A stretch of DNA of 64,000 nt from Pratylenchus scribneri (Eukaryota > Nematoda > Chromadorea > Rhabditida > Pratylenchidae). This document shows, piece after piece, positions 38,218-46,959 of the stretch. Below the pieces are notes generated by a model. It had not been told where the DNA came from. It ran no database searches and saw only the letters and a list, made by a program, of their open reading frames with translations. How positions within the stretch are numbered: position 1 is the first letter of the stretch; each line of letters opens with the position of its first letter. A program made the position numbers and the translations under genes. The DNA is taken from NCBI GenBank assembly GCA_030063045.1, contig JAQSEB010000034.1, positions 806,001 to 870,000 of the forward strand, in the 5' to 3' direction.

Positions 38218-41200
38218 ATGACTAAAAAATCGACAAAAATTGCCGCATATTTGGATGAATATTTGGCCAAATTTCCGGATGCATTGAACATTGATGATCC
38301 AATTGAATTGTCAAATGCTCAAAAATACAAAAGCATTTTGAATGATTGCAATGGGGAGGAGCCAAATTTCTTCCAACAAATTCATCGAAAGAATTTGCTC
38401 TCAGAACGAATTAGGAAACTTTCTTACCGAATTGCCTTTGAACTGGAGAAGGAAAAGTTGCCGACGGAAGAAGATTTAAAGGTTTAATTTGATTAGAAAT
38501 CAGACAAAAAATTAAATTATTTAAGAAATTCGAAGAATTATTGGACCGCGCATCCGAGTCCGAAACTGAAGATGGCGAGCAGAAAGCAATCAAATTCAAC
38601 CAATTTATGGTAACCCAAATTAAGTTTTTATTAAATCACTAAATTTATATGGTTCTTAGGCTCTCCGGAAACGACTTCCAAAACGTCTGATGAATTTTAT
38701 TTTGCCCGCAACATTCTTTCGAGCCCACCAAATTCAACAAAAATCATCAAATCCAAAAATTACCGTTGAGGCACTTCAGGATTATGTCACCAATAAAACT
38801 GCATTTTTCCGTAATCGACTCAACATGGCCAAATATGATGAGGATGGATTGGGCAGTTTGACCAGAGAGGTAGGTCTTATCGCTCATCATTAATAATTTT
38901 CTTTATAATTTTCAGCAATTTTCGGCATATTACCGAAACGAGGTCATCCCCAAAGTCGATGTTCTTCGTGATTTGGAGGTTTTATCAGATTAAATACAAA
39001 TAATAACCAAAAATTGCAGGAAACATTCGAAATTTGCTATATGAACACAGTGGAGACGATGTTCTTCTTCTTCCTTGACCCAAAACACACTGGTCGGATT
39101 CGGATAAACGACGCCATTGTTTGCGGCTTTTTGGAGAATGCATTCGGACTGCAAGTCAACCATGAGGATTTCGAAAATTGGTTAGTGTAAATTTTTTCTA
39201 CAATTTTTGTTAAAATTTCAAACTTTAAGGTTTTCTCCGGAAAAGACACATGAGCAAAATGGCCTCTTCCAAATCTATGATACGGATCAGAAAAACTACT
39301 TGACAATAGATGACTTTCAACGAATTCAAAATGGCGCATTCACTTCCACATTTGTTGAACGTCTCTTCGAAATTCACGTCCATAATGGTGGCAAAATGAT
39401 GTGCTACGAAGAGTTTGTCCAATTCCAAATTGCCTTCAATCATTTGGCGGTTCGCTTTTCTCTTTTAAATCCATTAAAACCAATTCACATTTAGCATCCA
39501 TCCTCGTTGGCCTATTTCTTCAAAATACTCGATGTGGACGGCAATGGATTAATCACCCGGCATGAGCTGTACTATTTCTATGGGGAATTGCGATTGGCCT
39601 ATAATTCTTGGTTCATGGATGGGGCAATGCCGGAATTCGATGATTTTGCCGATCAATTTTTTGACATGGTTAAACCGGTGGACAATGGAAAGTAAGTGGG
39701 AATGGAACATAAAAACAATTTTTTAAATATTAAATATTTTGAATTGGATTTGGATTGCAATTTAGGATTTGGATTTGTAATTGTAAAATTCTGATTTGCG
39801 ATTGTAATTATGAATTCTGATTTGCGATTGTAATTGTAATTCTGATTTGCGATTGTAATTATGAATTCTGATTTGCGATTGTAATTGTAATTCTGATTTG
39901 CGATTGTAATTGTAATTCTGATTTGCGATTGTAATTGTAATTGTGATTTGTAATTGTAATTCTGATTTGCGATTGTAATTGTAATTCTGATTTGCGATTG
40001 TAATTGTAATTCTGATTTGCGATTGTAATTATGAATTCTGATTTGCGATTGTAATTGTAATTCTGATTTGTAATTGTAATTCTGATTTGCGATTGTAATT
40101 GTAATTCTGATTTGTAATTGTAATTCTGATTTGCGATTGTAATTGTAATTCTGATTTGTAATTGTAATTCTGATTTGCGATTGTAATTGTAATTCTGATT
40201 TGTAATTGTAATTCTGATTTGCGATTGTAATTGTAATTCTGATTTGCGATTGTAATTGTAATTCTGATTTGCGATTGTAATTATGAATTCTGATTTGCGA
40301 TTGTAATTATGAATTCTGATTTGCGATTGTAATTGTAATTCTGATTTGCGATTGTAATTATGAATTCTGATTTGCGATTGTAATTGTAATTCTGATTTGT
40401 AATTGTAATTCTGATTTGCGATTGTAATTGTAATTCTGATTTGTAATTGTAATTCTGATTTGCGATTGTAATTGTAATTCTGATTTGCGATTGTAATTGT
40501 AATTCTGATTTGCGATTGTAATTATGAATTCTGATTTGCGATTGTAATTGTAATTCTGATTTGTAATTGTAATTCTGATTTGCGATTGTAATTGTAATTC
40601 TGATTTGCGATTGTAATTATGAATTCTGATTTGCGATTGTAATTATGAATTCTGATTTGCGATTGTAATTGTAATTCTGATTTGCGATTGTAATTATGAA
40701 TTCTGATTTGCGATTGTAATTGTAATTCTGATTTGTAATTGTAGTTCTGATTTGCGATTGTAATTGTAATTCTGATTTGTAATTGTAATTCTGATTTGTG
40801 ATTGTAATTGTAATTCTGATTTGTAATTGTAATTCTGATTTGCGATTGTAATTGTAATTCTGATTTGCGATTGTAATTGTAATTCTGATTTGCGATTGTA
40901 ATTGTAATTCTGATTTGCGATTGTAATTGTAATTCTGATTTGCGATTGTAATTGTAATTCTGATTTGCGATTGTAATTGTAATTCTGATTTGCGATTGTA
41001 ATTACAATTGCGAATTATTTCCTTCCTATTTTCGCCTAACATTGCCACACCTTATATCCCAAAAACATCTTTGTTATTCAGGATAACATTCAATGAACTG
41101 CTCAAATGCAAACAAGGCCATGATTTTGTGCTCTGCCTGATAAGTCATACGGAATTTTATCGCTACGAAACAAGGGACCAGGAAAACGGGGGGCTTGAAC

Positions 41201-45256: not shown

Positions 45257-45795
45257 TGTTGTATTTGTATTGTTGTAGTTTGCTGAAAAGAATGACTTTT
45301 TCAATATGTTCAGCATCAAAATACTTACCGGGTAATGCTGTAGACAACTCAAATTCAAAAGCAATTCGTTTTTCTCACAATTTATTAATCCAAAATTTAC
45401 TGCTATAAAATTCATTTTATTTAATTATTCGAATGTGGGGGGCAGAGGATTGGGTTTAAATTTTAAAATTGGATTAAACATTTAGTTCCAAGCTTCCAAC
45501 TTCCAACAAAATTAATATATGACATTGATCTCCTAATTTGGTAGTGAAATTCCAATTCCACAGGCACATCACGAAAATCCAACGTCATTCATTCATAAAA
45601 AATCGATAATTTGTGAAAATCAGAACACCAAATATGTAAATTTTTTAAAATAAATTATTATTTTATTCAAGAATTAAATTAAAAATCAGAATAAACAATA
45701 AAACAAACAAATGTGATTTTTATTTGAAGTCAAAATATTTAAATACAACGTTTCAATCATCCCAGTTTTTATCCTTCTTCTTTTGCCTTCATTCA
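45257..45795. other. intergenic region between the FUS-like and zinc-knuckle-SUMO genes
   Basis: 539 nt between two same-strand genes. It holds the 3' UTR of the SUMO-fusion gene and the 5' leader of the FUS-like gene. It may be an intercistronic region of a two-gene operon or a promoter. No coding frame is credible. Confidence 0.45.
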
Positions 45796-46959
45796 TTAGA
45801 GTTGGTCGCTGCCACCCAGCTGCTCTTGGTAGACCTGAAGATGAGAACGAATTGATTAGTTAATTGTGCTCTTGATTGAAAATTTAACATACCTCAATGA
45901 TATCGTCTTCTTCCATTTCCAAGCTTTTGGGAGTGTCCACGTCGTTAATTCGGCGACCATCGAACAGGAAGCGTAGAGAACCGACCTAAAATGATTATTA
46001 TTATTATGAATGTTATTAGCCTTCCCATCCTAAGAATTTACCGAAAAAAACAAACCGTGACTCCAGCGCGTTCTGTGTATGCCTTCTTCAATTTGCCCAT
46101 GCTGGTCCCATATTTCATTCGGAAATGGACTTCATTGGAATCCTGAATTAAAATCATTATAATTCAAGAAAATTCCAAAAAAAATACAAACCTGGCCAAC
46201 CACTTTGAGTTTGATGTATTTCGCCTCCTCCACCGGGTGCCGCGCCTCCTCCTCCACCAGTTGCTGCCCATCCTCATCACCTCCGCCTCCTTGTTCAGTG
46301 CAATTTCGAGCAATGTGTCCTTGTCGGCGGCACAAGTAGCAAACTGAAAATTTGATTTTAATGGAACGCATAATCAAAAATTATTTACAGAGTGGATTGG
46401 GGCATTCCCGCGAGAAATGACCATATTCGCCACAGTTGTGGCATGCTCCTAAATTAACAAATTACTAAGAATATAAAGGTTAAAACATACGATTTGGGCC
46501 ACCGCCTCCGCCTCCAACACCTCTGCCTCCACCACCTCCTCCTCCCAATGGGCAAAATCGAGCAATATGGTCTGGCTGGTTGCAACGATAGCAAACTGAA
46601 AAATTAAGATTTTTAGTGTATTAAGTCCACTAACCTTGGATTTCGCGGCCTTCTGTGCAATCAACAATAGCGTGACCTGGCTGGTGGCATCGGCGGCAGA
46701 CTGAAAATTTGATTTTAATGGAACGCATAATCAAAAATTATTTACGGAGTGGGCTGGGGCATTCACGCGAGAAGTGACCAAATTCGCCACAGTTGCAACA
46801 GAAGCCTAAATTAAAAAAATGATTTAATAAAAAGGATTATTATAAACATACGGTTGCCCATTTGGCAATCCCGCGCTTGATGTCCCGGCTGTCCACAATT
46901 GTAACAATCTTAAGAACAAATTGAATTCAATGTGAATATAATTCCAACTTACTTTGCAT
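45796..46959 (-). CDS. CNBP-like CCHC zinc-knuckle protein fused to SUMO
   Basis: Exons in minus order: 46959-46953, 46908-46852, 46805-46746, 46700-46635, 46595-46491, 46448-46389, 46343-46192, 46142-46056, 45985-45893, 45834-45796; every phase closes. The N-terminal half has six CX2CX4HX4C knuckles: [85 protein letters not shown] Gly/Arg spacer follows knuckle 4. Exon 7 continues from the sixth knuckle through an acidic linker into YIKLKVVGQ, the first strand of SUMO. The rest is a full SUMO nearly identical to C. elegans SMO-1: [57 protein letters not shown], then a four-residue tail SDQL after the di-glycine. There is no in-frame Met between knuckle 6 and SUMO strand 2. Zinc knuckles suggest single-stranded nucleic-acid binding; the GG end suggests it can be matured and conjugated. 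Confidence 0.9.

Follow-up and report, generated by a model that had tools for sequence, protein, structure and literature searches.

A predicted in-frame fusion of six CCHC zinc knuckles with SUMO, present in two copies in the genome of the nematode Pratylenchus scribneri

Can a complete SUMO be joined in frame to an array of zinc knuckles within one gene, and what might the resulting protein do? CNBP-type knuckle proteins bind RNA or single-stranded DNA, and a sequence-only reading of a locus in Pratylenchus scribneri had placed six such CCHC knuckles in front of a SUMO domain. The locus occupies the minus strand (46959-45796) of the window, i.e. of the whole 64,000-nucleotide stretch analysed here (contig JAQSEB010000034.1 of assembly GCA_030063045.1, positions 806,001 to 870,000; C34 in the following). 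Its ten exons and nine introns, all of the latter with GT-AG borders, give a single open frame of 241 codons plus stop. In the predicted product, six CCHC knuckles are followed by an acidic, Gly-rich linker and finally by SUMO, which ends in LGG followed by SDQL. The individual features, given in the order of transcription, are:

46953..46959, minus strand: exon 1, start codon (MQ); the counterpart on contig C82 is one codon longer
46852..46908, minus strand: exon 2, knuckle 1 (Pfam); a similar CNBP-like exon occurs in locus L053
46746..46805, minus strand: exon 3, knuckle 2 (spliced model, motif count)
46635..46700, minus strand: exon 4, knuckle 3 (spliced model, motif count)
46491..46595, minus strand: exon 5, knuckle 4 and Gly-rich stretch (spliced model, motif count)
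46389..46448, minus strand: exon 6, knuckle 5 (spliced model, motif count)
46192..46343, minus strand: exon 7, the fusion exon, with knuckle 6, the linker ending in EEAK and SUMO strand 1 (YIKLKVVGQ)
46056..46142, minus strand: exon 8, SUMO; an 87-nt exon, same in all eight stand-alone SUMO genes
45893..45985, minus strand: exon 9, SUMO; a 93-nt exon, same in all eight stand-alone SUMO genes
45796..45834, minus strand: exon 10, end of SUMO and stop
45596..45795, minus strand: 200 nt past the stop (3' UTR and slightly beyond), homologous to the stand-alone SUMO genes on contigs C39 and C50

The spliced frame confirmed that knuckle 6, the linker and the first SUMO strand run without interruption through the exon 46343-46192. 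A Pfam scan of the predicted fusion protein returned zf-CCHC with 111.5 bits, five stretches being individually significant, and Rad60-SLD/SUMO (PF11976) with 58.5 bits over residues 162-231, covering positions 1-71 of the 72-position profile. By motif count, CX2CX4HX4C occurs six times in the window copy and six times in a second copy on contig C82, so that the anticipated domain content of six knuckles plus SUMO was recovered. The calculated mass is 26.6 kDa, somewhat below the approximately 28 kDa that had been expected, and the knuckles have a calculated pI of 8.4. Within the segment preceding YIKLK there is one lysine in the C34 copy, adjoining the SUMO core, and none in the C82 copy. By eye, introns 3 (46701-46745) and 6 (46344-46388) of the window copy share every one of their 45 nt, and the knuckles encoded by exons 3 and 6 are much alike; together, this likeness points to part of the array having recently been duplicated internally or altered by gene conversion.

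Strong evidence that the gene is not an artefact comes from elsewhere in the genome, for which 227,248,964 bases on 276 contigs were available. The assembly report describes a HiFi assembly of a diploid genome with 276 contigs, 227.24 Mb and 41.4% duplicated BUSCOs after purging (PMC10138993). At C82:1025068-1026265, the same gene is found with ten exons in phase and 242 residues, in synteny with the window copy and on a different contig. With gaps counted, C34 and C82 show 87-90% identity in the three main stretches that match across locus and flanks. One whole codon in exon 1 is the sole coding length change, while the 5' flank on C82 carries an insertion of roughly 0.9 kb relative to C34. 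The earlier statement that all ten exons keep phase thus holds for both copies, as does the presence of LGG and SDQL at the end of SUMO. Because a second, diverged copy shares the ten-exon frame, chance or assembly error is very unlikely, and that the knuckle-SUMO fusion is a real fused gene can be regarded as nearly certain. The specific alternative that the assembly collapsed two genes into one, already considered in the sequence-only reading, is contradicted by the junction being shared between diverged copies on two contigs of a HiFi assembly (PMC10138993). It is opposed also by searches with the flanks (2.2 kb from below the gene, 2.5 kb from above it), which gave long matches at C34 and C82 only and hence no third copy of the flanks, such as an empty site lacking the fusion; the remaining rows, one in one search and 41 in the other, were at most 126 nt long, and the latter search scored 40 of 71 candidates. 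Such a collapse is therefore given hardly any weight. A separate feature of the two copies is the uneven divergence of exon 7 (46343-46192 compared with C82:1025683-1025834), in which 16 of 152 positions differ, 12 of them within the first 55 nt that encode knuckle 6; introns 6 and 7, unlike this part of the exon, are nearly alike between the copies. The divergence of knuckle 6 may reflect gene conversion in one copy with another knuckle exon as donor, and searches with exon 7 did not find a closer donor for its knuckle 6 sequence.

Given a real gene, its translation as one fused protein is judged probable. The competing possibility is that the locus yields two products and no fused protein accumulates, the knuckles being made as one protein and SUMO as another with a 5' end of its own, provided by trans-splicing or an internal start. 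Nematodes do trans-splice, and exon 7 of the C82 copy has two in-frame methionines in the linker (M149 and M157), so the earlier claim that no in-frame Met separates knuckles and SUMO is correct for the window copy and fails for the other. Against two products, the methionines of the window copy are confined to positions 1, 19, 178, 184 and 222, which leaves none in frame from knuckle 6 until M178 inside the SUMO core; its exon 7 contains no in-frame ATG and two out-of-frame ones, and in the C82 copy four out-of-frame ATGs precede the two linker methionines. Additionally, the ordinary SUMO start region is absent from exon 7. Separate products from this locus are thus considered improbable.

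Whether the fusion is the only SUMO of this nematode was addressed by a genome search with the 81-residue SUMO part, which gave 25 rows. Ten loci account for 20 of these with two exons each (E of 4.1e-11 or better); of the rest, four rows are remote matches with 37-46% identity and the last (E 6.75) is noise. Besides C34 and C82, SUMO loci are located on C39 (two), C50 (two), C42, C20, C46 and C11. The search for a separate SUMO gene, as suggested earlier, thus produced eight, and since these stand-alone genes exist elsewhere in the genome, the fusion is an extra SUMO paralogue. All eight stand-alone SUMOs have a short N-terminal tail and start with MSDA, MADD or MADA. Across the eight 9.5-kb stretches surrounding them, CX2CX4HX4C was matched once, in L039, by a sequence unlike a CNBP knuckle. 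Likewise, the eight nematode SUMOs retrieved among those listed (from Heterodera schachtii, three Meloidogyne, two Ditylenchus and two aphelenchids) are all stand-alone proteins of 92-105 residues. As a side observation, the two stand-alone SUMO genes on C39 (L035/L036) and the two on C50 (L038/L039) are in opposite orientation and about 50 kb apart, an inverted pair which is kept on both contigs.

The SUMO half of the fusion carries traces of its likely parent lineage. When its intron 7 is compared with intron 1 of the stand-alone genes, z is 6.6-10.4 for the four on C39/C50 (0 of 200 shuffles each) and 2.3-3.1 for those on C42, C20, C46 and C11, and the 200 nt following the stop codon give z of 14.1-22.7 and 4.6-9.2 for the same two groups. 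Intron 9 is mixed, C50b being the best match (z 12.4), followed by C20 (7.8) and C46 (6.1), with C39a and C50a below 2; intron 8 matches none of the eight stand-alone SUMO genes. In an unrooted tree of SUMO cores, the fusion copies group together (0.994), and the fusion copies plus the C39/C50 genes are split from the other four (0.986). The 3' end of exon 7, compared with exon 1 of stand-alone SUMO genes, agrees at 28 of 33 positions with C39a, 29 of 33 with C50b, 30 of 33 with C20 and 27 of 29 with C42; this short piece is slightly nearer to C20/C42 than to C50b/C39a, which counts against a clean derivation from C39/C50. On the knuckle side, a CNBP-like exon at C1:3892888 has 82% DNA identity with exon 7 along 62 nt, and an exon of this type in L053 agrees with exon 7 at 39 of 47 positions. 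As the latter match extends through the Gly codons, the join lies within or after the Gly-rich sequence, inside one exon. In the scenario suggested by these homologies, a duplication at the DNA level would have brought a SUMO gene next to a CNBP/HEXBP-like gene, at the exon for its last knuckle. The incoming SUMO gene, with C39/C50 as its probable lineage, would have lacked the 5' UTR and the start codon, and its coding sequence would have become continuous with that of the knuckles at Gly-rich sequence within a single exon. The chimeric origin is indicated by exon, intron and UTR homology, and the order of events and the loss of the SUMO 5' end are its inferred parts. Two other sources were considered for the parts. 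A retroposed SUMO is ruled out by the SUMO introns, which sit at the same exon borders, and by the resemblance of intron 7 and the 3' UTR to C39/C50. Derivation of the knuckles from a retroviral or transposon Gag is not favoured, as knuckles 1-6 lie on six separate CNBP-like exons; among the matches listed, CCHC matches with open frames of at least 300 aa, probably mobile elements, reached 31-55% only. Downstream of the CNBP-like gene in L053, which is located on C2, a histone H2B-like coding sequence with introns appears by eye.

Two copies also allow one to ask whether the frame has been maintained. Over 2359 aligned non-coding sites (441 nt of 5' flank, 431 of intron and 1487 of 3' flank, the last including part of the next gene), C34 and C82 differ by 32 indels, of which 26 have a length that is no multiple of three, while the 723 aligned coding sites contain no frame-shifting indel. 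With all non-coding sequence as reference, a Poisson model predicts 8.0 frame-shifting indels for the whole CDS (P of none 3.5e-4), 5.3 for knuckles plus linker (P 0.005) and 2.7 for the SUMO half (P 0.066). If introns and 3' flank serve as reference (17 in 1918), the corresponding P values for CDS, knuckles plus linker and SUMO are 0.0016, 0.015 and 0.11, and with introns only (8 in 431) they are 1.5e-6, 1.4e-4 and 0.01. This indel test was preferred over comparing dN with the intron rate because the count of intron substitutions between the copies varies with the aligner (8/430 or 22/431). Substitutions give a graded picture, with about 16 (15.5) nonsynonymous among 29 changes in the knuckles (P=0.006), 4 among 7 in the SUMO half (P=0.17) and 5 among 5, i.e. 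none synonymous, in the linker (P 1.0). When the fusion's SUMO half is compared with stand-alone genes, 4 of 15 changes relative to C50b (P 3e-5) and 6 of 17 relative to C39a (P 1.7e-4) are nonsynonymous, the site totals being hand-scaled in both cases. Over 16 pairs, dN/dS between fusion and stand-alone SUMO is 0.08-0.18, compared with 0 to 0.055 over 28 pairs among the stand-alone genes. Hence, the fused SUMO evolves faster than the stand-alone genes, and its still low dN/dS relative to them may include time before the fusion.

On these data, the open frame has been kept, but constraint acting on its SUMO half after the two copies separated is unproven. They bear directly on the view that the locus is a young chimera due to decay, having arisen by accidental duplication and lacking a selected function whether or not it is transcribed. 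Such a fate would fit a gene that is additional to eight stand-alone SUMO genes, whose SUMO half lacks significant constraint between the copies (4/7 nonsynonymous; indel P 0.01-0.11), whose linker changes are all nonsynonymous and whose SUMO has unusual residues at conserved sites. It is harder to reconcile with two copies that have neither a frame-shifting indel nor a stop where 6 to 13 frame-shifting indels would be expected in the CDS, with the constraint on the knuckles, and with the GG, the six intact CCHC motifs and the ten exons in phase that each copy retains. We therefore regard decay as unlikely.

The unusual residues just mentioned are found in a domain that is otherwise ordinary. 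The SUMO core aligns without gaps to human SUMO1 and to 5xqm, which we take to be C. elegans SMO-1, and whole-domain beta-grasp homology is thus evident from alignment and Pfam alike. Both fusion copies depart from C39a at, among other sites, core positions 19, 36 and 68, where they carry M, A and I; all eight stand-alone genes have V, T and V at these sites. In a homologue set of 207 domains (from 120 listed of 227 proteins found), 183 are ungapped at core position 19; of these, 171 have V there and a single one has M. This position aligns with HFKVK of human SUMO1, in strand 2, where the V is presumably V38, beside the SIM groove. As the V-to-M change would therefore sit beside that groove, SIM binding of the fused SUMO may be altered; a literature search on V38 as a SIM-groove residue found nothing relevant. 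In SMO-1, SIM peptides are bound between strand 2 and helix 1 (PMC5646861).

What, then, would such a protein do? Maturation of SUMO by its proteases uncovers the GG in the C-terminal tail (PMC5646861). The N-terminal tail of SMO-1, 14 residues long, is flexible; human E1 and Ubc9 supported conjugation of SMO-1 in vitro, and SENP2 cut SMO-1 chains (PMC5646861). For the fusion, a SUMO protease would trim SDQL only and thereby expose GG, leaving a modifier of 237 residues and 26.2 kDa. Because SUMO is the last domain, maturation leaves the knuckles attached, and the earlier suggestion that a protease might free SUMO from them was rejected as main reading, since SUMO has no C-terminus other than that of the whole protein. 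The whole protein of about 26 kDa could then be activated and conjugated like SUMO; the knuckles need not block this because they are located where SUMO normally has its flexible N-terminal tail. From this free N-terminal side they would, judging by the families involved, bring an RNA- or single-stranded DNA-binding module to the substrate or to SIM-bearing partners. That the fusion is a SUMO paralogue matured at GG and then conjugated whole together with its knuckles is the best reading, to which an even chance is assigned. More tentatively, and at less than even chance, it might act as a nucleic acid-guided modifier, conjugation both marking a protein and tying it to RNA or single-stranded DNA, with the eight ordinary SUMOs doing the routine work.

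A protein of this kind might also remain mainly unconjugated and serve as a non-covalent scaffold, in which the knuckles hold RNA or single-stranded DNA and the SUMO face docks SIM proteins. The SUMO-like domains of Rad60/NIP45, two per protein, degenerate and without a processed GG, are thought to dock SIM proteins in this way without conjugation. The long N-terminal module of the fusion suits such a role, conjugation is not needed for it, and the conjugation end could persist by descent only. A pure docking domain would have no need of the GG and cleavable tail, which both copies keep, and the V-to-M change altered a residue beside the very groove used for docking. The scaffold is accordingly rated an unlikely alternative to whole-protein conjugation.

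Several known systems share features with the fusion. With SUMO/SMO-1 (the Smt3 family) it shares the gapless beta-grasp core and the C-terminal GG with a short removable tail, but it is no small independent protein, as about 160 residues, six CCHC knuckles among them, precede YIKLK in place of the short flexible N-terminal tail. With CNBP/HEXBP it has in common several tandem CX2CX4HX4C knuckles on short exons, which resemble those of CNBP-like genes in this genome, except that the last knuckle exon continues into SUMO instead of the end of the protein. Rad60/NIP45 similarly carry a C-terminal SUMO-like domain on a longer protein, while the fusion has a single, near-canonical SUMO with GG. 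In FUBI-eS30, a modifier is linked in frame to a nucleic acid-associated protein, as in the fusion; there, the modifier is N-terminal and freed by proteolysis. The ubiquitin-ribosomal fusions eS31 and eL40 likewise have the modifier N-terminal and release it by proteolysis (PMC6721733). In contrast to this precursor layout with cleavage at the domain junction, the SUMO reported here is C-terminal, with GG at the protein end, and not releasable in that manner. RBBP6, linked to RNA processing, combines DWNN, one CCHC knuckle and a RING (PMC1360078) and is the nearest architecture found in the literature consulted. RBBP6/Mpe1 thus also pair a CCHC knuckle with a ubiquitin-like domain, yet their DWNN is N-terminal and non-SUMO, the knuckle is single and a RING is present; in the fusion, SUMO is C-terminal, the knuckles are six and the Pfam scan matched neither DWNN nor RING.

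The earlier impression of an undescribed architecture agrees with the searches made. Among the matches listed (the best 120 of 227, 64 of 64 and the best 120 of 964), no protein carries zf-CCHC together with a SUMO or ubiquitin label, in a database that may not hold the predicted proteins of P. scribneri itself, and none of the literature matches listed concerns a knuckle-SUMO protein. SUMO normally finds its partners largely via short SIM contacts. If the preferred reading of conjugation with the knuckles attached is true, fusion of a domain on the free N-terminal side can change the specificity of a modifier, and a SUMO with a nucleic acid-binding arm would be a tool for tethering proteins to RNA. 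Moreover, the likely parent lineages, stand-alone SUMO and CNBP-like, survive in the same genome, which makes the origin and fate of a modifier fusion traceable.

Two observations concern the surroundings of the locus. On the same strand, a gene at 45260-42132 seems to start about 0.5 kb downstream of the fusion; its exons are of low complexity and rich in Gln and Gly, an RRM is weakly matched (21.2 bits against a cut-off of 20.7), and the product presumably resembles the FUS/TAF15 type; the close spacing could mean that both genes form an operon. Further along the minus strand, at 39650-41050, lies a tandem-looking array whose frames read as repeats of LQSQIRITITIANQNYNYNRKSE and which looks like a satellite.
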